From positions 124,001 through 188,000 of the forward strand of contig NZ_JPOS01000090.1 in assembly GCF_000759025.1 (NCBI RefSeq): a DNA stretch of 64,000 nt, given 5' to 3'. This stretch comes from Phaeodactylibacter xiamenensis. GTDB taxonomy: Bacteria; Bacteroidota; Bacteroidia; Chitinophagales; Saprospiraceae. Below are positions 47,271 to 58,537 of this stretch, in pieces; positions within the stretch are counted from its first letter, which is position 1, and each line of letters begins with the position of its first letter. Below the pieces are notes generated by a model that did no database searches, was not told the origin of the DNA, and worked only from the letters and a program-made list of their open reading frames with translations. Position numbers and translations under genes: made by a program.

Positions 47271-49085
47271 CTACAAAATTCCCCCACCCCGCCAGTCAGG
47301 CATGAACTGATAACGGGGCCATCCATTTTCGGATTTTCCGCCATCACGGTCCTGCACCACCATATTGAATCGGATGGAGCGCCAGTTCTCGCCCTGACGC
47401 TCTGTGAGGTAAGACATGGGGATGGCCGCTTCCAGCACGTACACGCCTTCGGCTTCCACCCGGCAGCGGTATTCGGCACCTTCCGGCAATTTATCCTCAT
47501 AAAAAATCGAAGCCGGCAGTTCCTTCGTTTCCGGTGCCACCGTGAACAGGATAGAATTTTCGTACCACCCCTGCCCCGTCCGGCTGGCACTAACTGCGGC
47601 AGGCTCGGCATTCACCACAAATCCGATGAAGTCCTGCTGCCAGGAGACTTCAGCGGTATCAACCATGATCTGATCGTCCTCCACCCGGGCGGCGATGTAG
47701 AGGTAGTCGTCGTCATAGCCAAGGTTGAAGCGGGCATTCAGGCTTTCGCCGGGCAAGTCCTGCAGGGTATAAGGCAGGTTCGCCCATTCCTTCAGCTTTC
47801 CGTCCACCTTGACACGCTTTGGTGCCTGCTCCAATAGGTACTTCTGTGCCGGGCGGAGATTGAAGGAGAAAGGGATGGACAGGTCCGGGAAGTCTTCGGT
47901 GTCAAAGCTCACCTCTGCTTTCAGGGGCAGGGCTTCCAGGTTGGAGAGTGCGGTTTCGCCTTTGCGTGCTTTTAGGTCTACTAGCAGGGTGTCTACGGAG
48001 TTAGGCGCTACCGTCATTTCAGGCGCACTCAGCACACCGGTCAGCCCCCAGCTGAACTGCTGATCCCACTTCACCTGCATGGGCACGTTTTGATCATTGA
48101 AGATTTTGACCACCATTTGTGCCTCCTCAAAAGCAGCGCCATCCATCAGCAGCGGCTCCACACGGATGGGGCGCTGGGCGGTGATGGTTTTCACAAAATC
48201 GCTGGACTCGGCCGTGACCACATTTTCATCCCAAATCCCATCGAGGAGTAGATTCGCCAGCACCGGCCCTTCCTCCGTCATCGTCACCCACACCACATGG
48301 TCAAACTCACCCAGCTGCGGGCCACGCAGGGCACTCCCGCCTCCGGTGGTGGCCAGCAGGAAATAGCGCCCGTTATTACGCTCATACTTCACATAGTGGT
48401 GGTGGTGCCCTACAAAAACGGTATGCTTGCGGTTGGCCAGCAGCTTCTCCACATCCACCCAGCGCTTGGTGTCTTTGAGTATCCAAAGCGGTTGGTGCAT
48501 GAAGAGGAAGGTCCAGCGCACCTCTTCATTTTCCGCCAGTACCTGCTCAATGTATTCGTATTGTTCGTCCGAGATCGTCCCCCGGTTGGAGCCCCGGTAC
48601 TGGTCTTCGGAGTTGAGGCAGAGGAACAGCACATCCTTGTAAATGAAGTGATAGTACGTCTGCCCGAACCGCTCCAGGTACACCCGCTCCATGACTTCGT
48701 TGGTGATGTCATGATTGCCCGGCACATAGAAAAAGGGCATCTGCAGCTGGGCCGTAAAGCCGGTAAATTCTTCCCACTGCCGCTCCAGTTCCACTGTATC
48801 CTTCGTATACCCCTCGATCAGGTCGCCCACCGACATCACAAACTCCGGTTGCAGCAGATTCAGCTTGCGCACCCCGTCCATGAATACGCCCGGGCGGTGC
48901 CCGCCGGTCCGGTCGGTGACGATGGCAAACTGAAACTGGCAGTCGTCATTATTCAGCTCCAGGCTGGTGAAGGGGTGGGGCCCGGCGGTAGTATCAATGC
49001 GCAGGGTGTCGGAGGTGCAGTTTTGGCTGTAGGCGGATACCGTTATCAGCAAAGCGAAGGTCAGGAGGCAAAATTGGCGGTACAT
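47271..49085 (-). CDS. Secreted metallophosphoesterase with C-terminal CBM9-like domain
   Basis: A 604-residue exported protein (signal peptide ending SAYSQ). Calcineurin-like phosphoesterase domain with motifs VTDRTGG, SVGDLIEG, VPGNHD, FLFMHQPLW and VFVGHHHHYV supplies the binuclear metal ligands. Residues about 320-420 form a linker/beta domain and 425-604 a CBM9-type carbohydrate-binding fold (KVDGKLKEWANLPYTL, DDDYLYIAARVEDDQI), as in proteins acting on cell-surface sugars. No sorting domain. The gene is convergent with the AAA_14 gene and divergent from hsdR. Confidence 0.88.
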   Translation of the reverse strand: MYRQFCLLTFALLITVSAYSQNCTSDTLRIDTTAGPHPFTSLELNNDDCQFQFAIVTDRTGGHRPGVFMDGVRKLNLLQPEFVMSVGDLIEGYTKDTVELERQWEEFTGFTAQLQMPFFYVPGNHDITNEVMERVYLERFGQTYYHFIYKDVLFLCLNSEDQYRGSNRGTISDEQYEYIEQVLAENEEVRWTFLFMHQPLWILKDTKRWVDVEKLLANRKHTVFVGHHHHYVKYERNNGRYFLLATTGGGSALRGPQLGEFDHVVWVTMTEEGPVLANLLLDGIWDENVVTAESSDFVKTITAQRPIRVEPLLMDGAAFEEAQMVVKIFNDQNVPMQVKWDQQFSWGLTGVLSAPEMTVAPNSVDTLLVDLKARKGETALSNLEALPLKAEVSFDTEDFPDLSIPFSFNLRPAQKYLLEQAPKRVKVDGKLKEWANLPYTLQDLPGESLNARFNLGYDDDYLYIAARVEDDQIMVDTAEVSWQQDFIGFVVNAEPAAVSASRTGQGWYENSILFTVAPETKELPASIFYEDKLPEGAEYRCRVEAEGVYVLEAAIPMSYLTERQGENWRSIRFNMVVQDRDGGKSENGWPRYQFMPDWRGGGIL

Positions 49086-49213
49086 GTTGTTTTTGCGGCT
49101 AAAATACGGGGTTTGGGGTTAATTGGGGGTTAAGTTTTGCCGGAGTTCCCTCATATCCCCAAAATTCCGTATCATTACCCCACAATGTTCAGCCCCCACA
49201 CAAGCGACGCCAC

Positions 49214-51574
49214 ATGAACAAAAAACACCTCTCCGAACGCGACATTTGCACCCAGTACATCACCCCCGCCGTGCAGCAGGCCGGGTGGGACTTGCGCCGT
49301 CAGGTACGTGAAGAAGTGACTTTCACCGACGGGCGCATCATCGTGCAGGGGCGCATGCATACACGGGGGCGGCGGAAGCGGGCCGACTACATCCTCTACT
49401 ACAAGCCTAACCTGCCGCTGGCGATTATCGAGGCAAAAGACAATAACAAATCGGTGGGCGCGGGCATGCAGCAGGCGCTGGAGTATGCGGAGATTCTGGA
49501 TATCCCCTTTGTGTTTGCTTCCAACGGAGATGCGTTTGTGTTTCACGATAAGACGGTGACGGATGGGGCACGGGAGCAGGAAATTCCCCTGGAAGCTTTC
49601 CCTTCGCCGCGGCGGCTGTGGAAGAAGTACCTGGCGCATAAGGGGCTGGAGGAGCCCAAAGCGCAGGAGATTGTGGCGCAGGACTATTTTCAGGATGAAA
49701 GTGGCAAAAGCCCGCGCTACTATCAGCAGATTGCCATCAACCGGACGCTGGAGGCAGTGGCGAAGGGGCAGGACCGGATTTTGCTGGTGATGGCTACCGG
49801 GACGGGCAAGACCTACACGGCTTTCAACATCATCTGGCGGCTGTGGAAATCGGGCGTGAAAAAGCGGATCCTCTTTTTGGCGGACCGGAATGCGCTGCTG
49901 ATGCAGACCAAAAACGGGGATTTCGCGCCTTTCGGCAATGACATTATGCACATTATCAAGAACCGGCGCATCGACAAGTCCTATCAGATTTACTTTGCGC
50001 TGTATCAGGGGCTGACGGGCAAGGAGGAATCCATGAATGCGTATAAGGAATTCAGCCGTGATTTCTTCGACCTCGTCATCATCGACGAGTGCCACCGGGG
50101 CAGCGCGGCGGAGGCTTCGGCCTGGCGTCAAGTACTGGACTATTTTGACCAAGCTACGCAGATTGGGCTGACGGCTACGCCCAAGGAGACGCGCGATATT
50201 TCCAATATCTCCTACTTCGGTGAGCCGGTGTACACTTATTCGCTAAAACAGGGCATTGACGATGGCTTCCTAGCCCCCTACAAGGTGGTGCGAGTGTCGA
50301 CCTCCGTGGATGACAGCTGGCGACCGACCAAAGGGCTAACCGACAAGTACGGCTACGAGGTGGAAGACCGCATTTACAACCTAAAGGACTACGACCGCAA
50401 CCTCGTCATCGACGGGCGGACACAGGTGGTGGCCAAGCGCATTTCGGATTACCTCAAACAGGTAGACAGGTATGCAAAAACCATCGTCTTTTGCGTAGAT
50501 ATCTACCATGCCAACCGCATGCGGCAGGCGCTCATCAATGAGAACGCCGACCTCGTGGCCAAGCACCCGAATTACGTGGTAAAAATCACCGGAGACGATG
50601 AAATTGGCAAGCGCGAACTCGACAACTTCATGGATGTGGAGGAGCGTTTCCCGGTCATTGCCACCACTTCCAAGATGCTCACCACCGGCGTGGATACCAA
50701 AATGGTCAAGCTCATCGTGCTGGAAGCCAATATTGGCTCTATGACCGAATTCAAGCAGATTATCGGGCGGGGTACGCGCATACGGGAAGCCGAAGGCAAG
50801 GTTTACTTCACCATTATGGACTTCCGCAAAGCGACCAACCTATTTGCGGACCCTGACTTTGACGGGGAGCCCGTGCAGATCTACGAGCCGGGGCCGGAGG
50901 AGGACGTAGTGCCACCGGATGTGGTAGCGGATGTAGTAGAAGCAGCAACCGAAGCCGCCCGAAAGGCGCAAAGCCGGCCCAACATCAGCATCAAAGACGA
51001 ACCGGAGAAGCGCCGCAAATTCCACATCAACAACGTGGAGGTCACCCTGGCGCACGAGCGGGTGCAGTACTACGGCGCAGACGGCAAGCTCATCACCGAG
51101 TCCCTGCGGGATTATACCAAGAAAAACGTCCGCCGGGAGTTTGCCTCTTTGGACACCTTCGTGCAAAAATGGCACAGCAGCCCCCAAAAGGAAGCCCTGG
51201 TCAAAGAGCTGGCCGAGCAGGGCGTCCTCATCGAAGCCCTGCGGGAAGAAGTCGGGCAGGATTTGGACGAATTCGACCTCATCTGCCACATCGCCTTCGA
51301 TCAGCCGCCGCTTACGCGCAAAGAGCGAGCCAATAGCGTGCGCAAGCGCAACTACTTCGCCAAATACAGCGGGCTGGCCAAAGACGTCCTCAGCAAACTG
51401 TTGGAAAAGTACGAAGCAGAAGGTATCTTCCCGCTCGAAAAACGCGAAGTGTTGCAGGTACAGCCGCTCAATGAAATGGGCTCCCCCATAGAACTCGTCC
51501 GCGCCTTCGGCTCCGCCAAAGCCTTTGACGCCGCCGTACGGGAACTCGAAGCCGAGCTGTACAAAAGCGCATGA
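49214..51574 (+). CDS. hsdR: Type I restriction enzyme, HsdR subunit
   Basis: A 786-residue EcoEI/EcoKI-type restriction subunit. N-terminal PD-(D/E)XK nuclease (RADYILYY, then E73-x-K75 in IIEAKDNN), superfamily 2 helicase with ATGTGKT at 194-200, DECH at 291-294, TATPKE, and GRGTR in motif VI, then the C-terminal EcoEI-R domain. It translocates DNA and cuts at distance when the site is unmethylated. Followed by a 710-bp stretch of phased hairpins and then hsdM, hsdS in the same direction. The other strand carries no gene in this region. Confidence 0.95.
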   Translation: MNKKHLSERDICTQYITPAVQQAGWDLRRQVREEVTFTDGRIIVQGRMHTRGRRKRADYILYYKPNLPLAIIEAKDNNKSVGAGMQQALEYAEILDIPFVFASNGDAFVFHDKTVTDGAREQEIPLEAFPSPRRLWKKYLAHKGLEEPKAQEIVAQDYFQDESGKSPRYYQQIAINRTLEAVAKGQDRILLVMATGTGKTYTAFNIIWRLWKSGVKKRILFLADRNALLMQTKNGDFAPFGNDIMHIIKNRRIDKSYQIYFALYQGLTGKEESMNAYKEFSRDFFDLVIIDECHRGSAAEASAWRQVLDYFDQATQIGLTATPKETRDISNISYFGEPVYTYSLKQGIDDGFLAPYKVVRVSTSVDDSWRPTKGLTDKYGYEVEDRIYNLKDYDRNLVIDGRTQVVAKRISDYLKQVDRYAKTIVFCVDIYHANRMRQALINENADLVAKHPNYVVKITGDDEIGKRELDNFMDVEERFPVIATTSKMLTTGVDTKMVKLIVLEANIGSMTEFKQIIGRGTRIREAEGKVYFTIMDFRKATNLFADPDFDGEPVQIYEPGPEEDVVPPDVVADVVEAATEAARKAQSRPNISIKDEPEKRRKFHINNVEVTLAHERVQYYGADGKLITESLRDYTKKNVRREFASLDTFVQKWHSSPQKEALVKELAEQGVLIEALREEVGQDLDEFDLICHIAFDQPPLTRKERANSVRKRNYFAKYSGLAKDVLSKLLEKYEAEGIFPLEKREVLQVQPLNEMGSPIELVRAFGSAKAFDAAVRELEAELYKSA

Positions 51575-51682
51575 CTTAAGCCTATCCTTTTTGTACAGCC
51601 CAAACCTGGGAATACACAAAAATGAGGCCTTAAACACTTTGCCCACTGATTTCGGTAGTGCTGCCGGTCAGGAATCAATGTG

Positions 51683-52266
51683 CGACTTCGCTGAAGTCGA
51701 CTAAAAACCACAGCTAATAAACAACTGATGTTCGACCTCTATGAGGTCTGATTGATTCTGGATCCGCATTAGTATAGAAGTCACACCCTGCTAAACCCAA
51801 AGACCAAGCAAAACCCGACCTCAACGAGGTCAAACCTTACTAACCCCCAAAACCAAGCAAAACCCGACCTCAGCGAGGTCGCACAATACTAACCCCAAAA
51901 CAAGCAAAACCCAACCTCGTAGAGGTCACACCTTACTAACCCCCAAAACCAAGCTTAAAGTCCGACCTCGTAGAGGTCATACATTAGTTAAAAAAAACAT
52001 CCATTAAAATAACCGACCTCAGCAAGGTCGTACACTTTTAAACCTAAAACCCGACCTCAGCGAGGTCACACATCAGTCAAAAAAAACACCCCTTAAAATA
52101 ACCGACCTCAGCAAGGTCGCACATTACTAACCCCAAAACAAGCAAAACCCGACCTCGTAGAGGTCACACCTTACTAACCCCCAAAACCAAGCTTAAAGTC
52201 CGACCTCGTAGAGGTCATACATTAGTTAAAAAAACATCCATTAAAATAACCGACCTCAGCGAGGTC
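51683..52266. repeat. Phased array of twelve palindromes between hsdR and hsdM
   Basis: Twelve copies of a 15-17-base inverted repeat, mostly CGACCTC-NNN-GAGGTC(G), starting near 51683 (a CGACTTC variant), 51733, 51816, 51865, 51912, 51963, 52014, 52052, 52103, 52150, 52201 and 52251. Nine of the eleven spacings lie between 47 and 51 bp; the others are 83 and 38. Intervening DNA is similar between units (ACTAACCCCCAAAACCAAGC; TTAAAAAAAACATCCATTAA), and a block of three units is duplicated at 238 bp. Because spacers repeat, this is not a CRISPR array. No ORF. The last palindrome ends 18 bp before the hsdM ATG. Confidence 0.9.
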
Positions 52267-52284
52267 GCACACTTTTTAACACCA

Positions 52285-53718
52285 ATGAGCAGTATCACCT
52301 CCATCATCAAAAGCGTGCGCGACATCATGCGCAAAGACACCGGCGTAGACGGCGACGCACAGCGCATCTCCCAAATGGTATGGATGCTCTTCCTCAAAAT
52401 CTTCGCTGACCAGGAAGCCGAGTGGGAACTCCTCAACCCCGACTACCAAAGCCCCGTCCCCGAGCCCCTGCGCTGGCAAAACTGGGCCGAAGACGACGAA
52501 GGCCTCACCGGCGATGAGTTGATGGACTTCATCAACAACGAGCTCTTCCCCACCCTGAAGGAACTCGACCGCAACCTCGGCCCGCAAGCCAAAATCGTAC
52601 GCGCCGTCTTCGAAGACACCTACAACTACATGAAAAACGGCACCCTCTTCCGGCAGGTGATCAACGAAATCGACAAGATCGACTTCAACAGCAGCAAAGA
52701 CCGCCACCTCTTCAACGACCTGTACGAAACCATTCTTAAAGAACTCCAATCGGCCGGCTCCTCCGGGGAATACTACACGCCCCGGGCCGTCACACAATTC
52801 ATGGTCGACATCCTCAACCCCCAACTGGGCGAAACCGTACTCGACCCCGCCTGCGGCACCGGCGGCTTCCTCACCTGCACCATCGATCATCTCGACAAGC
52901 AGATCAACAAGCCCAGCCAGCGCAAAACCCTGCAACAGACCGTACGCGGGGTAGAGAAAAAGCCTCTGCCCCACCTGCTCTGCACCACCAACCTCATGCT
53001 GCACGGCTTTGAAGTGCCCGGCGTCAAGCGCGGCAACTACCTCGCCAGGCCCTACAGCGACTGGGGCGCAAACGACAAAGTGGACCTCATCCTCACTAAT
53101 CCGCCCTTTGGCGGCGTAGAGGAAGACGGCACGGAGACCAACTTCCCGCAGAAATTCCGCACCAAAGAGACCGCCGACCTCTTCCTCGCCCTCATCATCC
53201 GGCTGCTGAAGGATGGCGGGCGGGCCGCCGTGGTATTGCCCGATGGCACCCTCTTTGGGGAAGGCGTCAAGACCCGCCTCAAGGAAGAACTGCTGGCCCG
53301 CTGCAACCTCCACACCATCGTCCGCCTGCCCAATGGCGTCTTCAACCCCTACACGAGCATCAAGACCAACCTGCTCTTCTTTGAGAAAGGCAGCCCAACC
53401 AAGGACATCTGGTACTACGAGCACCCCTACCCGGATGGCGTGAAGAGCTACAACAAAACCCGCCCCATCCATATCAAGGAATTCGATGCGGAGAAAGCCT
53501 GGTGGGGCCAACGGAAGGAAAACAAGCACGCCTGGCGCGTCCCCCTGCAGGATATTATCGACCGTAACTACAACCTCGACATCAAGAACCCGCACGAGGA
53601 AGCCGATGACCTGGGCACGCCCGAAGAACTGCTGGCCGAATACCAGCAAGCTGAACAAGACATCCGCCAATTGCAAGATAAAATCGTAGCCGTACTCCAA
53701 AACGCCCTGCAAGCATGA
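52285..53718 (+). CDS. hsdM: Type I DNA methyltransferase, HsdM subunit
   Basis: A 477-residue N6-adenine methyltransferase: N-terminal helical HsdM_N domain (DAQRISQMVWMLFLKIFAD), SAM motif I DPACGTGGF at D187, catalytic motif IV NPPF at N272. It modifies the site chosen by HsdS and forms the M2S core of the enzyme. It shares ATGA with hsdS (53715-53718), so both subunits are translationally coupled. Slightly short of EcoKI HsdM (529) but normal for this clade. Confidence 0.96.
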   Translation: MSSITSIIKSVRDIMRKDTGVDGDAQRISQMVWMLFLKIFADQEAEWELLNPDYQSPVPEPLRWQNWAEDDEGLTGDELMDFINNELFPTLKELDRNLGPQAKIVRAVFEDTYNYMKNGTLFRQVINEIDKIDFNSSKDRHLFNDLYETILKELQSAGSSGEYYTPRAVTQFMVDILNPQLGETVLDPACGTGGFLTCTIDHLDKQINKPSQRKTLQQTVRGVEKKPLPHLLCTTNLMLHGFEVPGVKRGNYLARPYSDWGANDKVDLILTNPPFGGVEEDGTETNFPQKFRTKETADLFLALIIRLLKDGGRAAVVLPDGTLFGEGVKTRLKEELLARCNLHTIVRLPNGVFNPYTSIKTNLLFFEKGSPTKDIWYYEHPYPDGVKSYNKTRPIHIKEFDAEKAWWGQRKENKHAWRVPLQDIIDRNYNLDIKNPHEEADDLGTPEELLAEYQQAEQDIRQLQDKIVAVLQNALQA

Positions 53719-55457
53719 CCCACCTGCTCCAATACTTCCCGCAGCTCAGCCTGCGCCCCGAGAACCTGCCCGAACTGCGCAGCCTTATCCTGCAACTGGC
53801 CGTAGAGGGCAAGCTGACCGCCGAGTGGCGGAAGGCAAATCCGGATGTGGAACCGGCTGCTGAGCTATTAGCCCGCATTGAGGCGGAAAAGGCGGCGCTG
53901 GTGAAGGCGAAGCAGATCAAAAAGAGTAAACCCCTGCCGCCGGTGCGTGCGGAGGAGGTGCCGTTTGAATTGCCGGAGGGGTGGGCTTGGTGTAGGCTAG
54001 AAAGTCTTTCAACCTATATACAAAGAGGAAAATCTCCCAAGTACGTAGATAATTCTAACATTCCAATTGTATCTCAAAAATGCGTTCAGTGGGATGGGTT
54101 TGACTTGTCTAAAGCACGATTTCTAAATGAGGATGTTTTAGACAAATACCAGCCAGAAAGATTTCTAAAAGAGGGGGACTTACTATGGAATTCTACAGGA
54201 AACGGCACAGTAGGCCGTACTAATTTGTTCCCCAGTGTGACTTATTCTAAAGTCGTTGCTGATTCCCATGTTACGGTCGTAAGAGTCTTTAAAAAAGAAG
54301 TATTGCCAGAATATCTTTGGGTATATACCGCTTCGCCCTACGTACAGCGCCAAATAGAGGACCGTGTTTCAGGGAGCACAAAACAGACGGAATTAAACAC
54401 TTCGACCGTAAAAGAACTTGAATTCCCACTCCCACCCCTACCCGAACAACAAGCCATCGTCCAAACCGTAGACGCCCTGCTGCAAGAGCTCGACCAGCTA
54501 CAGCAGCGCACCGAGACCCGCCTGCACCTCAAGGCCGACTACGCCACCGCCGCCCTGCGCCGCCTCACCACCGCCCCGGCCGTGGGCCCGGCCTGGAAGG
54601 CCCTGGCCCCGTACTTCCACACCTTCTTCGATGAAACGGGCAACGTACAATCCCTGCGCGCCGCCATCCTGCAGCTGGCCGTACAGGGCAAGCTCACCGC
54701 CCACTGGCGCAAGGCGCACCCCGATGTGGAGCCCGCCACCGAGCTGCTGTCCCGCATACAGGCAGAAAAGGCAGCCCTGGTGAAGGCGAAGAAAATCCGG
54801 AAGGAGAAGCCGCTGCCACCGGTGGATATGGATGAGGTGCCGTTTGCGGTGCCGGAGGGGTGGGTTTGGTGCCGGTTGGGGGAGATTTCAACCGGTACGG
54901 AGGCTGGGAAAAGTCCAAGGTGCCTTAACAGAGTAGCAGAAGAGGACGAATGGGGCGTTTTGAAGACCACTGCTATACAAGATCAGCTTTTCATTCCAAG
55001 TGAGCACAAGGCTTTTCCGCAAGGTTTTAAAAACGGTAGTCTATCAGAAGTAGAAGTAGGTGATGTTCTTATTACTAGGGCTGGACCTTATAATCGAGTC
55101 GGTATTGTGGCCTACGTCCAGTCAACGCGTAGAAAACTCTTGCTATCAGATAAAATTGTGCGGATCAATTTTGAGAAATCACTTATCCACCCTCCATTTT
55201 TGAGCCTCGCACTCGGTAATGGCGCCTCAAAGATTTTCCTTGATGAGAAAAAATCAGGGATGGCTAAGAGCCAAGTCAATATTTCGCAGAGCAATATGAA
55301 ATTAACGCCGCTAGCCCTCCCGCCCCTCCCCGAGCAGCACGCCATCGTGCAGGCGGTGGAGGAACTGCTGGGTTTGTGCACGGCATTGGAGGAAGCGGCC
55401 GGGCGGCGGGACGTGGTGTTGGGGGATTGGGTGCGGGCGGTGGTGGCTGGGGTGTAG
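53715..55457 (+). CDS. hsdS: Type I specificity subunit HsdS with two duplicated halves
   Basis: A 580-residue HsdS. Two halves each start with a near-identical segment: LRSLILQLAVEGKLTAEWRK (about residue 17) and LRAAILQLAVQGKLTAHWRK (about 313), each followed by PDVEPA.ELL, a Lys/Glu helix, LPEGWAWCRL/VPEGWVWCRL, then a target recognition domain and a closing PLPPLPEQQAIVQ/ALPPLPEQHAIVQ helix. The recognition domains (about 53990-54415 and 54890-55310) are visibly AT-richer than the GC-rich constant parts, as expected when they are exchanged by recombination. It should recognise a bipartite asymmetric site. Both halves look intact. Confidence 0.95.
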   Translation: MTHLLQYFPQLSLRPENLPELRSLILQLAVEGKLTAEWRKANPDVEPAAELLARIEAEKAALVKAKQIKKSKPLPPVRAEEVPFELPEGWAWCRLESLSTYIQRGKSPKYVDNSNIPIVSQKCVQWDGFDLSKARFLNEDVLDKYQPERFLKEGDLLWNSTGNGTVGRTNLFPSVTYSKVVADSHVTVVRVFKKEVLPEYLWVYTASPYVQRQIEDRVSGSTKQTELNTSTVKELEFPLPPLPEQQAIVQTVDALLQELDQLQQRTETRLHLKADYATAALRRLTTAPAVGPAWKALAPYFHTFFDETGNVQSLRAAILQLAVQGKLTAHWRKAHPDVEPATELLSRIQAEKAALVKAKKIRKEKPLPPVDMDEVPFAVPEGWVWCRLGEISTGTEAGKSPRCLNRVAEEDEWGVLKTTAIQDQLFIPSEHKAFPQGFKNGSLSEVEVGDVLITRAGPYNRVGIVAYVQSTRRKLLLSDKIVRINFEKSLIHPPFLSLALGNGASKIFLDEKKSGMAKSQVNISQSNMKLTPLALPPLPEQHAIVQAVEELLGLCTALEEAAGRRDVVLGDWVRAVVAGV

Positions 55458-55582: not shown

Positions 55583-56161
55583 ATGCAGTTCTCTAATCCC
55601 TGGTTTATGCTGTCATTCAATATTACGAACTGGATTTTCTACAACCCTTTTGTATTCGTAGGGAGCATTTTCCTATTGTTTGCCGTTCTTTCAAAGATTA
55701 TTTCCAGAAGCTCTTCTGTGTCTGTAGGGAAATATGGCAAGGCAAGAATAAGTAAAAGCAGGGTTGTCAGACGCAGATCGGTAATCAGCACCTACTCATT
55801 ATTCGTACTCGGCATAGCCCTGTTACTTATTGGGTTCCGGGATAAATTTGATTATGGTAAAACATCTGAATCAAGTGGTATTAGCAGAAGTAAGCTGTTA
55901 GAAGTATTTAAGAAATGTACTCGTTTTCGGGAAGGCTACTGCTTGTGTCGTACCTATGACCAACAATCAACCTGGGTACTGGTTAGAAAGTCAGACGGCA
56001 TGCAAAGTGATAAAATCGAATTTCCCGATGCTCTAAAAGTCATTGGTATCGACAACTTCCAAGATGGCAAAGCAGCCGTTATTGGCGTACCGATAGGTCC
56101 TAAGGAGAAGGTAGCAGAGATCGATACACTTGGGCGTGTCTATTTTTTTCGAAGTGGATAG
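55583..56161 (+). CDS. Two-helix membrane protein, unknown
   Basis: 192 residues. Two hydrophobic segments (about 21-39, NPFVFVGSIFLLFAVL; about 70-87, YSLFVLGIALLLIGF) joined by a basic loop, then a 100-residue C-terminal soluble domain with one Cys pair (EGYCLCRTYDQ) and beta strands (GKAAVIGVPIGPKEK). AT-rich compared with hsdM. I know no family. It is 125 bp downstream of hsdS in the same direction and could be a passenger of the restriction locus. Likely a real gene because of its length, start and codon use, but unsupported by homology here. Confidence 0.6.
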   Translation: MQFSNPWFMLSFNITNWIFYNPFVFVGSIFLLFAVLSKIISRSSSVSVGKYGKARISKSRVVRRRSVISTYSLFVLGIALLLIGFRDKFDYGKTSESSGISRSKLLEVFKKCTRFREGYCLCRTYDQQSTWVLVRKSDGMQSDKIEFPDALKVIGIDNFQDGKAAVIGVPIGPKEKVAEIDTLGRVYFFRSG

Positions 56162-56230: not shown

Positions 56231-56291
56231 ACCCGCCCCGCCTCTTCCGGTTTCACCGGAATGCGCATGTTTGGCGGGTTTCCTGTTTTTG
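56231..56291 (+). terminator. Nested hairpin after the two-helix gene
   Basis: Outer stem ACCCGCC (56231-56237)/GGCGGGT (56273-56279), inner stem TTCCGG/CCGGAA, followed by TTTCCTGTTTTT. Seventy bases after the stop of the gene at 55583-56161. Confidence 0.5.
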
Positions 56292-56340
56292 TGCTTGTGC
56301 TCTTAAAGAAAAGCATATCAACACACCTAAATCACAGGAA

Positions 56341-56375
56341 TGCCCCGGCTGTCACCAGGAGGTGCTGCCGGGGCA
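56341..56375 (-). terminator. Strong hairpin after the BspA-like gene
   Basis: Nine-base perfect arms TGCCCCGGC/GCCGGGGCA enclosing a CACC/GGTG stem, 24 bp beyond the stop of the leftward BspA-like gene. There is no T tract, so this may be a stabilising 3' structure. Confidence 0.45.
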
Positions 56376-56398
56376 TCATAATTACCACAGGCTGTTCT

Positions 56399-58537
56399 TT
56401 ATTGTTTTACCAAGGGCAGGTTGACGAGCTGACTGCCCGTATTGACATGCACGTAGTACATACCAGCGGGGAGCCCTTCCAGGAGGAGGTCCACCGTGGC
56501 AGCACCATCTGCCACCTGCTTTTCGACAAGGGGCTGCCCGAGCTGATTGACCACACTAACGAGCGCCGGTGCACTGAGGGGCTCCGGCAGTTGCAGCTGC
56601 ACCTGATGGGTGGCGGGGTTAGGCACAAGCTTAGCTTTGATGGCGCTATCCTGCTGAGCAATAGCCAGGGTTGGCGCCGGTCCTTCGCTGAGATAATTAC
56701 CGGGGAGAGAACGGCTAACTTCAATATTACGGAATACGGCTTCAACATTGCTTGTATGCGGAAACTTATAGGCTGCGATGCCGACATTATAGCAAGAGTA
56801 TGGGAAATAGATAGGATTACCAATTCCTTGCCAAATATTCCCGTACCCTCTAGTGTAAGTCCGAAGGTAGTTCCCTTCTTTTATGATACCCACAGAGCCA
56901 ACTATGGTACTGTTGGAAGCAATCTGGTTAGTTACGCTAACAGGGGCACCTTCAGTTCCTCTTACTATTCTTTGATGGACAAGTCCATTACCCTTAAAAA
57001 AACCCACAACCGGGGCGGAAGGGGTATCACCAGCTCTAACGACTACTCCTGCATAGCCACCACTTGCATGTTCAATATTTGTGAATACAAAGCCATTTCC
57101 ACCGTGGCAAACTGAACGGGTTATTGTAGCTAAATTATCAAATGCAGCTCCATTTGTCGTTTGGGCGCCGGTCGTGATCGTATACCATTCTGTTCCGCAG
57201 CCATCAAAACTGTAGGTACTGCCAGAGCCTTGAGAACCAATGTCCTGTGCAGAGTTGGGGAAGGGTATAGAATCAGCCGTGACATTCAAGTTAGCCTGGC
57301 AGGTATCTGACAAACCGTTTTCATCGGCAACAACAAGATTGACTTCATGATTGCCAACATCAAATAAGCTATCTTCTTCCAAAAGAGAAAAAGTAAGACC
57401 GAATATAGTCGGATTGGGGTTGTTATCGAAATCAAAAAATGATAGTGCGAATGGTGGTGGAATTGGTAAGCAAAAGGGGTAGACATCATAAATATCTGCA
57501 TCCAAATCCTTACAAACCGCAACAGGAGGATTGCCACAAAATTTGGAATCCCCACTAATCGTCCAGTTATATTGGTCAATCAGTACCTGCCGGCTGGCTT
57601 CGGAATCACAGTAGGTCAGGTCCGAGGCACCAAGTGAAATACCTTGCGGTGGCGAAGACAGACTCGCCCAACCGGTGAGCGTAGCATCATAATTTTCTGT
57701 ACTCATGCCACTTGAAGAAAGCATATTAAACATACTGGATATATTGGATATATCCCAGCTTCCGAGATTTTGATCGAATGCGGTGGCACCTTGAAACATA
57801 AAGTTAGCAAATTCCACGCTCGATACGTCCCAATTGCCAATATACTGATTAAAGGAGGTGTTATCCTGGAATACCTGATACATTTGAGTTACGTTAGAAA
57901 CATCCCAATCGCCTATGGCTCCGTTAAAAGAAGAATTGGCAAACATGCTGTTCATCTTTGCAACGTTGGACATATCCCAGTGATTTAGCGAGCTCACCTG
58001 CAAGGAGGAACAGCCGTCAAACATATTAGAGCAATCCAGGTTTGGAGTCGAGAATACAGGAGTATGGTATTCATCAACAGACGTTAAGTGATTGGCATAC
58101 AAAAACATCCAGCTACAGTTATTCCATGTTACTTCTCCCCAATCTACGACACTGACAAGCTGTTTCGAGGCATCTTTTATTTGAAATTCTACTTCACCAT
58201 CGCCGTAAAAAGCAACCTCATAAACGCCGGGAGTGCTGTAAACATGTCCCAGGGATAAGCCCCACCCTAGTGGGTGCTCAAATAACGTATCAATTGTGCC
58301 GTCACGCTCCCAGTCGATACCAAGAGTTCCTGTTCCTGACCAGTTAATATTATTTAGTTCCGCCTGACTCGGGTCACCCGTAATGGACTGGTATGTCCCA
58401 CGGGTGTCAATTTTGATGATAAAAGGGAATTTAGTGAAAGTGGTAGATTGAGCGCTGCCTTGCCGGGCCTGAAGGCAAACCATCACACAAGCTGCAATCA
58501 GTGCCCATGAATTAATACTACAAAAGGTCTTTTTCAT
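56399..58537 (-). CDS. BspA-type leucine-rich-repeat surface protein with T9SS sorting domain
   Basis: About 712 residues from the ATG at 58537 (MKKTFCSINSWALIAACVMV signal region); the frame to 58633 comes from a dispersed repeat. DUF285/BspA-like LRR units (NMFDGCSSLQVSSLNHWDMS, NVAKMNSMFANSSFNGAIGD, WDVSNVTQMYQVFQDNTSFN) fill residues about 180-330. After a spacer with HYR-like and laminin-like parts, the C-terminus (AKLVPNPATHQVQLQLPEP to LVNLPLVKQ) is a T9SS sorting domain. A secreted adhesin-like protein. The gene is bracketed by a structured repeat (58583) and hairpins. Confidence 0.87.
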   Translation of the reverse strand: MKKTFCSINSWALIAACVMVCLQARQGSAQSTTFTKFPFIIKIDTRGTYQSITGDPSQAELNNINWSGTGTLGIDWERDGTIDTLFEHPLGWGLSLGHVYSTPGVYEVAFYGDGEVEFQIKDASKQLVSVVDWGEVTWNNCSWMFLYANHLTSVDEYHTPVFSTPNLDCSNMFDGCSSLQVSSLNHWDMSNVAKMNSMFANSSFNGAIGDWDVSNVTQMYQVFQDNTSFNQYIGNWDVSSVEFANFMFQGATAFDQNLGSWDISNISSMFNMLSSSGMSTENYDATLTGWASLSSPPQGISLGASDLTYCDSEASRQVLIDQYNWTISGDSKFCGNPPVAVCKDLDADIYDVYPFCLPIPPPFALSFFDFDNNPNPTIFGLTFSLLEEDSLFDVGNHEVNLVVADENGLSDTCQANLNVTADSIPFPNSAQDIGSQGSGSTYSFDGCGTEWYTITTGAQTTNGAAFDNLATITRSVCHGGNGFVFTNIEHASGGYAGVVVRAGDTPSAPVVGFFKGNGLVHQRIVRGTEGAPVSVTNQIASNSTIVGSVGIIKEGNYLRTYTRGYGNIWQGIGNPIYFPYSCYNVGIAAYKFPHTSNVEAVFRNIEVSRSLPGNYLSEGPAPTLAIAQQDSAIKAKLVPNPATHQVQLQLPEPLSAPALVSVVNQLGQPLVEKQVADGAATVDLLLEGLPAGMYYVHVNTGSQLVNLPLVKQ

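Follow-up and report, generated by a model that had tools for sequence, protein, structure and literature searches.

Why should a type I restriction locus carry a row of regularly spaced palindromes between its restriction and modification genes? The locus lies in a 64,000-nucleotide stretch of the Phaeodactylibacter xiamenensis genome, referred to here as the window, and a first-pass annotation of that stretch had offered three possible roles for the palindromes: a binding array for a controller protein, a transcript structure setting the ratio of hsdR to hsdM, or a repeat hot spot for rearrangement. The palindromes were followed from the locus to the rest of the genome, to the same junction in relatives and to the transposase genes that such palindromes flank.

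Layout of the restriction locus and its palindrome array

The hsdR, hsdM and hsdS genes are typical of their kind, and their identities were supported by both Pfam and PADLOC. Among eight neighbourhood ORFs searched with Pfam, three had no match (48297–49133, 55583–56161 and 56261–57115), the second of which sits directly beyond hsdS and might conceivably encode a regulator. The gap between hsdR and hsdM holds the array, 12 palindromes of the form GAC[C/T]TC-NNN-GA[G/A]GTC at 51684–52266, located by pattern matching. The features are as follows.

49214..51574, + strand: hsdR, type I restriction subunit, 786 aa (Pfam ResIII, EcoEI_R_C, HSDR_N; PADLOC REase_I)
51684..51698, + strand: palindrome 1, GACTTC-GCT-GAAGTC, the dispersed GACTTC variant
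51734..51748, + strand: palindrome 2, GACCTC-TAT-GAGGTC
51768..51782, + strand: putative decayed unit, read from the sequence, sole remnant the right arm GAAGTC (51777–51782)
51817..51831, + strand: palindrome 3, GACCTC-AAC-GAGGTC
51859..51996, + strand: three-unit block, copy 1 (repeat search, 96% identity to copy 2)
51866..51880, + strand: palindrome 4, GACCTC-AGC-GAGGTC
51913..51927, + strand: palindrome 5, one mismatch
51964..51978, + strand: palindrome 6, GACCTC-GTA-GAGGTC
52015..52029, + strand: palindrome 7, one mismatch
52053..52067, + strand: palindrome 8, shortened unit, start 38 bp from that of palindrome 7
52097..52234, + strand: three-unit block, copy 2, offset 238 (repeat search)
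52104..52118, + strand: palindrome 9, one mismatch
52151..52165, + strand: palindrome 10, GACCTC-GTA-GAGGTC
52202..52216, + strand: palindrome 11, GACCTC-GTA-GAGGTC
52252..52266, + strand: palindrome 12, position kept in the sister species G002 (by comparison with G002)
52285..53718, + strand: hsdM, type I methyltransferase subunit, 477 aa (Pfam N6_Mtase, HsdM_N; PADLOC MTase_I)
53715..55457, + strand: hsdS, type I specificity subunit, 580 aa (Pfam Methylase_S; PADLOC Specificity_I)

In each unit a palindrome of 15 bp, with two 6-bp arms around a 3-nt loop, is joined to a spacer of ~34 bp starting RCAYSTTASTAACC. Successive palindromes start 50, 83, 49, 47, 51, 51, 38, 51, 47, 51 and 50 bp apart, and the last ends 18 nt before the hsdM ATG (52266 versus 52285). 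The first-pass annotation had given the same number, spacings and distance to hsdM, and also the duplication within the array, in which a block of 138 nt (51859–51996) recurs at 52097–52234 with 96% identity and an offset of 238. Its description of every unit as GACCTC-NNN-GAGGTC held except for the first, which is of the GACTTC type, and for three with one mismatch each (51913, 52015 and 52104). On our reading, the 83-bp step would conceal a decayed unit, whose surviving arm lies exactly 49 bp ahead of the corresponding arm of palindrome 3. With up to two mismatches allowed, the window holds 19 matches to the motif, 12 of them the array, versus 1.63 expected and a maximum of 5 in 100 shuffles. 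An Rfam search of the array stretch at a lax threshold returned nothing above the gathering score, and a single chance-level match (E 0.82). Elsewhere in the window, at 1982–2413, GACCTCCCGGAAATC occurs four times with an exact 139-bp period, a tandem repeat without the array palindrome.

The palindromes belong to a dispersed repeat family

Exact GACTTC-NNN-GAAGTC was found 43 times in the 7.87-Mb genome, of which 42 copies lie outside the array (counted from the match list), and with one mismatch it occurred at 90 places per strand versus 51 for the reversed control. The GACCTC-NNN-GAGGTC form had 11 exact copies, eight in the array and three on contig C77; its one-mismatch count of 35 was not higher than the 39 of the reversed control, so that outside its own clusters this variant stands at background. 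The family usually takes the form of a head-to-tail palindrome pair with starts 48–50 bp apart, the spacing found in 21 of 21 doublets outside the array (all having passed a 44–53 bp filter). Pairs at unrelated places have a spacer consensus in common, with RCAYSTTASTAACC following one palindrome and ACC preceding the next, and most array spacers fit it as well. Of the palindrome clusters read, 19/21 were intergenic by a crude ORF call. The array palindromes are not specific to hsd genes. Because doublets elsewhere share the pitch and the spacer consensus, the five helical turns pointed out in the first-pass annotation correspond to the length of one unit of this family.

The regular repeats and spacers of near-constant length might also recall a CRISPR or CRISPR-like memory array. 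That reading is practically out of the question, as the annotation had already concluded: the spacers resemble each other and follow the genome-wide consensus, which by itself refuted it, the same units occur singly and paired elsewhere in the genome, and the 15-bp repeat is shorter than the 24–48 bp given for CRISPR repeats in the accessible part of PMC3733652.

A covariance model of the doublet was built from 28 rows, 20 of them doublets elsewhere in this genome and 8 from the array, the alignment omitting 2 of 30 doublets (window:51682–51757 and L024:3294–3368). It gave 55 matches in this genome, those at the 28 training places being matches by construction, and matches in 10 of 59 genomes overall, relatives being searched with stricter filters. 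Five congeners yielded 28 (G002), 10 (G003), 6 (G001), 5 (G004) and 0 (G005) matches, and five of 53 further relatives yielded 37 (G006), 29 (G023), 7 (G029), 5 (G035) and 3 (G032). The idea that the array might always stand beside hsd genes in other genomes was not borne out, with doublets in 10/59 genomes and, in this genome, largely at dispersed intergenic sites.

Two further repeat arrangements were seen during the survey. On contig C75 of this genome (G000:C75:163238–186636; L239, L240) a second doublet subfamily, whose palindrome CGACCTCGTAGAGCGTCG is bulged and whose pairs again have a ~50-bp architecture, has at least 10 model matches within about 23 kb; Rfam gave no match for L239. 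In G006, many of whose 37 matches lie near contig ends among the matches listed, GACCTC doublets occur within a short element (L153, G006:C49:52865–53039) that has an 18-bp terminal inverted repeat, CATGAGTCATCCCGAATT.

Presence and absence of doublets within the genus

Six doublet sites were searched in congeners with their flanks joined. At five of the six the flanks adjoin without a doublet in G004, and at one of them also in G005, while three of the six tested are filled in the sister species G002, one with two model matches instead of one. The empty sites are also short of about 65–195 bp of flank, so that the inserted unit is not delimited in Phaeodactylibacter.

The hsdR–hsdM junction in relatives

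In the sister species G002, whose HsdM is 95–97% identical, the junction holds 3 palindromes versus 12 here, and the last of them is in register with unit 12, standing 17 nt before hsdM there and 18 nt here. The HsdM match in G002 (G002:C12:73572–75003, L039) falls into two overlapping pieces in separate open frames of 413 and 169 aa, and the gene may therefore be frameshifted in that assembly. At the orthologous junctions L037 and L038 (G011 and G010; HsdM 77–78% identical) no palindromes of this family were found.

A wider survey covered the best 80 of 272 hsdM loci in the named collection, of which 74 have hsdR upstream on the same strand with a gap of 0 to 2147 bp. At least three perfect palindromes of this shape were present in 6/74 gaps, those of the sister species, four Cyclobacteriaceae and one Rufibacter. 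Cyclobacterium sp., Mongoliibacter ruber and Lunatimonas salinarum all have the order hsdR, Y1 transposase gene, palindrome array, hsdM, with palindromes of the GACCTC, GACCCC and GATCCC types, and in Algoriphagus marinus the array is at the junction and the transposase is broken. Three of the four genomes have the exact GACCTC palindrome at this junction only; the fourth, that of Mongoliibacter, has a further array of it, 2 kb long, ~10 kb on and ~6 kb beyond hsdS. In an HsdM tree the four Cyclobacteriaceae fall among close relatives (L075, L083, L084, L085, L095 and L136) at whose loci no such transposase was found, so that its presence at the junction is patchy, and the two Phaeodactylibacter sequences form a separate branch. 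The Rufibacter sp. locus (L103) has, upstream of hsdM, a palindrome cluster with GGAGT-type arms at the junction, and no subclass 1.2 TnpA was found in its 13 kb.

Two ways in which the array might act on the restriction genes can be weighed against these data. In the first, a controller protein bound to helically phased palindromes would set the expression of hsdM against that of hsdR, an idea like RptR. The palindromes do stand directly upstream of hsdM, the position of the last unit before the ATG is kept in two species, four Cyclobacteriaceae and, with a different motif, a Rufibacter also have clusters at the junction, and RptR offers a precedent in the accessible part of its description (PMC12255303). 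A dedicated regulatory array is nevertheless very unlikely. The same units, with the same spacing and spacer consensus, lie at many unrelated intergenic sites, an outcome that the first-pass annotation had itself named as refuting; the ~50-bp pitch belongs to the repeat family; two orthologous junctions have no palindromes; and a promoter scan of 51500–52400, made with a sigma-70 consensus only, which is ill-suited to Bacteroidota, gave no promoter-like site.

In the second, hairpins in the hsdRMS mRNA would stabilise, terminate or process the transcript and so set the ratio of restriction to modification subunits, whatever the origin of the palindromes. RNA folding of the array was far stronger than that of shuffled sequence (z −14.5; 0/20 shuffles equally good), as would be expected of any dense palindrome array. 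Nine terminator-like sites are built on array palindromes, but eight are on the opposite strand; the only one on the coding strand is unit 12 with the T-run immediately ahead of hsdM, and we read these sites as by-products of the palindromes. For REP hairpins, roles in terminating transcription and stabilising mRNA have been hypothesised, as far as the accessible parts of PMC3733652 and PMC8266576 go. The two orthologous junctions lack such hairpins, and the number of units differs between sister species, 12 versus 3. A transcript device is on balance unlikely, and an RNA device specific to hsd genes, as the annotation had pictured it, is not supported in view of the dispersed copies elsewhere and the arrayless junctions at 77–78% HsdM identity.

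A Y1 transposase associated with the palindromes

A candidate agent for the dispersal was met in G002, where a Y1 transposase gene (C24:41621–42085) lies between GACCTC/GACTTC palindromes whose spacers are of the kind seen in this genome. Contig C77 of the present genome is the syntenic place and carries the same repeat cluster at 84–92% identity, but the transposase gene is missing. The two differ by an 814-bp segment in G002 that spans the distance from one direct-repeat doublet to the following one, with a second, smaller difference close by. We tentatively read the C77 difference as loss of the gene in this genome rather than gain in G002. Another such TnpA gene, in G032, has palindromes on its upstream side only.

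The ends of an element could be read in G023, and in G023 only, by aligning its two gene-bearing copies. These elements measure 779 and 780 bp, their flanking sequences are unrelated, and their similarity extends from the first palindrome of one doublet to the last palindrome of an inverted doublet. Other places in the same genome have inverted doublets ~165 bp apart, and the one that was read (L238) has no gene between them; in an alignment of two of these short copies the ends were not visible.

In the present genome no intact cognate TnpA was found. Its three Y1 genes were considered as movers of the array and rejected, each being flanked by other repeats. One locus of this genome (L033, G000:C54) has a subclass 1.2 TnpA gene inside tandem units of ~300 bp, as judged by eye; these units carry CGCACCTACGGCGCGG, a different repeat set from the array.

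Subclass 1.2 of TnpA_Y1 was described by Quentin et al. (2018; PMC6006769), in the accessible part of that paper, as having the signature Y---Q--HH, as occurring mostly in Bacteroidetes and Cyanobacteria, and as generally lacking typical IS200 terminal structures. In our alignment of 10 TnpAs, some of them chosen by this very motif, the Y, Q, H and H are invariant in 10/10, and the signature is present in 77/80 phylum-wide TnpA matches; assignment to the subclass is by signature only. Five of five TnpAs scored 63.7–73.7 bits with the NCBIfam IS200/IS605 transposase model (NF033573), above its 55-bit cut-off, and 25–38.6 bits with the model for REP-associated tyrosine transposases (NF047646), below its 80-bit cut-off. 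PADLOC gave no match for the two TnpAs submitted. The subclass 1.2 profile matches solved hairpin-binding transposases of the IS200/IS605 type, such as ISHp608 TnpA; the solved structure 2xm3 we take to be that of the ISDra2 transposase.

The tie between transposase and palindrome type was followed through a TnpA tree. Three of the GACYTC-flanked TnpAs of the Phaeodactylibacter side, namely L234, L154 and the L236/L237 pair, form one clade together with L227 (support 97/93), and the Cyclobacteriaceae genes are unresolved; when all seven GACYTC-flanked TnpAs were taken, Cyclobacteriaceae included, they did not cluster beyond shuffles (2 changes; 500/500 shuffles as low). The GACYTC motif was found at 0/80 further subclass 1.2 loci. 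Palindromes of this general shape are nonetheless enriched beside such genes, with motifs that vary from gene to gene: 134 were counted beside 38 genes versus 15.3 expected, in a set that includes several near-copies and the hsd loci themselves and that lacks L234 (missed by the motif filter), and 149 beside 80 more versus 37.3 expected. The enrichment is not universal, as 19/38 genes exceed all 50 shuffles in the first set and 22/80 exceed all 30 in the second.

Transposase genes in and beside type I restriction operons

Y1 transposase genes of subclass 1.2 are also found inside or next to type I operons elsewhere. With names assigned by Pfam, the order is hsdR, hsdS, TnpA, hsdM in G046 and GmrSD-like gene, TnpA, hsdM, hsdS, hsdR in G019. 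In a sample of 58 Y1_Tnp matches (down to E 2.5e-18, not all of subclass 1.2, the motif being present in 23 of the 29 loci L205–L233), two lay within 1 kb of an hsdM-like gene versus 0.06 expected, and the expected counts at 2.5 and 5 kb were 0.11 and 0.20. The hsdM-like genes for this comparison were matches to E 1.3e-10 at 68 places; where a gene was split its second piece was dropped, as was any weaker match. Phylum-wide, 4/80 subclass 1.2 profile matches lay within 4 kb of hsdM versus 0.37 expected (P 0.0006), or 3/80 (P 0.0065) when L366 and L374, which look like one locus in two genomes, are counted once. The 80 were the best-scoring of a longer list, the genome's own three genes left out, and 4/10 rows of the profile behind them are hsd-associated, so that the figure may be biased upward. 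Expectation and observation are moreover not strictly alike, the former resting on HsdM_N counts (unlisted genomes taken as 0) and the latter on tblastn to three restriction systems, and a combined P for both samples uses an interpolated 0.17 for the 58-gene sample.

In all six loci the TnpA gene and the hsd genes are co-directional. Pfam supported the gene names of L366 and L331. Other small genes, RhuM, ORF6N and NYN, share these operons, and type I operons may therefore simply collect inserts. In L366 and L374 (G247 and G295) the TnpA gene is preceded by TGCAGCGTAGCTGCA palindromes at 164- and 215-bp steps, and the L366 operon also contains one ORF6N gene and one gene with an NYN domain.

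These counts bear on a further explanation, that subclass 1.2 TnpA elements prefer type I operons and that the array marks the site of a former TnpA insertion, since lost from the junction. It overlaps with the explanation that we prefer, a cluster of dispersed REP-like palindromes, and differs from it in claiming both a preference and a former gene at this place. The hsdR–TnpA–palindromes–hsdM order in three Cyclobacteriaceae and the broken gene in Algoriphagus speak for it, as do the 2/58 and 4/80 counts, the latter with its bias. Against it, searches of the junction of either Phaeodactylibacter (window tblastn; L036, L039 and L109) gave no TnpA similarity, and 42/74 orthologous gaps measure at least 387 bp, so that the junction hosts other inserts and may simply tolerate them. 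We consider a preference together with a former gene here doubtful.

More tentatively, and in our judgement improbable in its entirety, the subclass 1.2 TnpAs of Bacteroidota might be an unrecognised intermediate between REP and IS systems, with palindrome doublets for ends and type I operons among its preferred harbours, in which transposase and array would have settled repeatedly, several times immediately ahead of hsdM; array length could then tune modification versus restriction, and a single-strand nuclease might benefit from a defence locus or join it. Should the excess of TnpA genes at type I operons survive an unbiased survey, it would link single-strand transposition to defence loci.

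Proposed origin of the array

The array is probably an enlarged, partly decayed cluster of dispersed REP-like intergenic palindromes, seeded by mobile pairs and expanded by tandem duplication. The dispersal of the family, its common spacer consensus, the presence and absence of doublets among congeners, the palindrome-bracketed TnpA gene of G002 and the element ends in G023 are observed. In the mechanism that we propose, a cognate HUH/Y1 TnpA (subclass 1.2, IS200/IS605-like) would recognise palindrome pairs as single-stranded hairpins and move them to intergenic sites. One or a few units would have entered the hsdR–hsdM gap in an ancestor of the two Phaeodactylibacter species, and recombination or slippage between units could then have enlarged the array to the 3 units of one species and the 12 of the other. 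The search of this genome gave no cognate transposase gene, so that the palindromes here are probably orphans. Should they affect hsdM at all, as hairpins in read-through RNA, that would by default be taken as a side effect. Of the roles offered at the outset it is the hot spot for rearrangement that stands, given the 12 versus 3 units, the duplication at 238 bp and, elsewhere, the gene-sized difference between two repeats of the family.

A tempting regulatory reading is thereby replaced by a testable one. The sister species with the TnpA gene and the present genome without it at the same place form a natural presence/absence pair, and a transposase subclass described as generally lacking IS200-type ends gains candidate substrates in several species. 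In the literature searched, which consisted of titles and the starts of abstracts, most subscription papers lying outside reach, neither this array nor a link between subclass 1.2 and restriction was found. Within the same limits, REP/IS-like palindromes are here tied to a transposase subclass for which no such partners were found reported.

Comparison with known systems

RptR islands likewise have palindromes near type I restriction genes. The RptR sites differ in being 6-bp TAGCTA motifs in the promoter upstream of rptR, conserved in Gammaproteobacteria according to the accessible part of PMC12255303; the palindromes described here are dispersed through the genome rather than confined to a restriction promoter.

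The likeness to REP/BIME (REPIN) sequences is closer. Those too are short intergenic palindromes with small loops, occurring as singles, pairs and clusters and dispersed through the genome (in the accessible part of PMC8266576, the S. maltophilia REP is a perfect palindrome of 8 bp whose loop is 3 nt long), and the 42 exact GACTTC copies outside the array and the 19/21 intergenic clusters fit this description of a multicopy extragenic palindrome. The family differs in two ways: the GT[AG]G (or CGTC) tag of REPs is missing from the hairpin foot throughout the 28-row alignment, and the pairs of Phaeodactylibacter are head-to-tail, not inverted. The G002 gene flanked by cognate palindromes resembles a REPtron (TnpA_REP/RAYT); such flanking was found on both sides in G002 and upstream in G032, but not in the present genome, and the five associated transposases fall under the NCBIfam cut-off for REP transposases and over that for IS200.

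With IS200/IS605 elements the family shares a single-domain HUH/Y1 transposase and, in G023 only, hairpins at the element ends and copies in unrelated flanks. The G023 ends differ from those of IS200/IS605 in being palindrome doublets in inverted orientation, and the shorter doublet arrangements without a gene resemble the non-autonomous derivatives of such elements.
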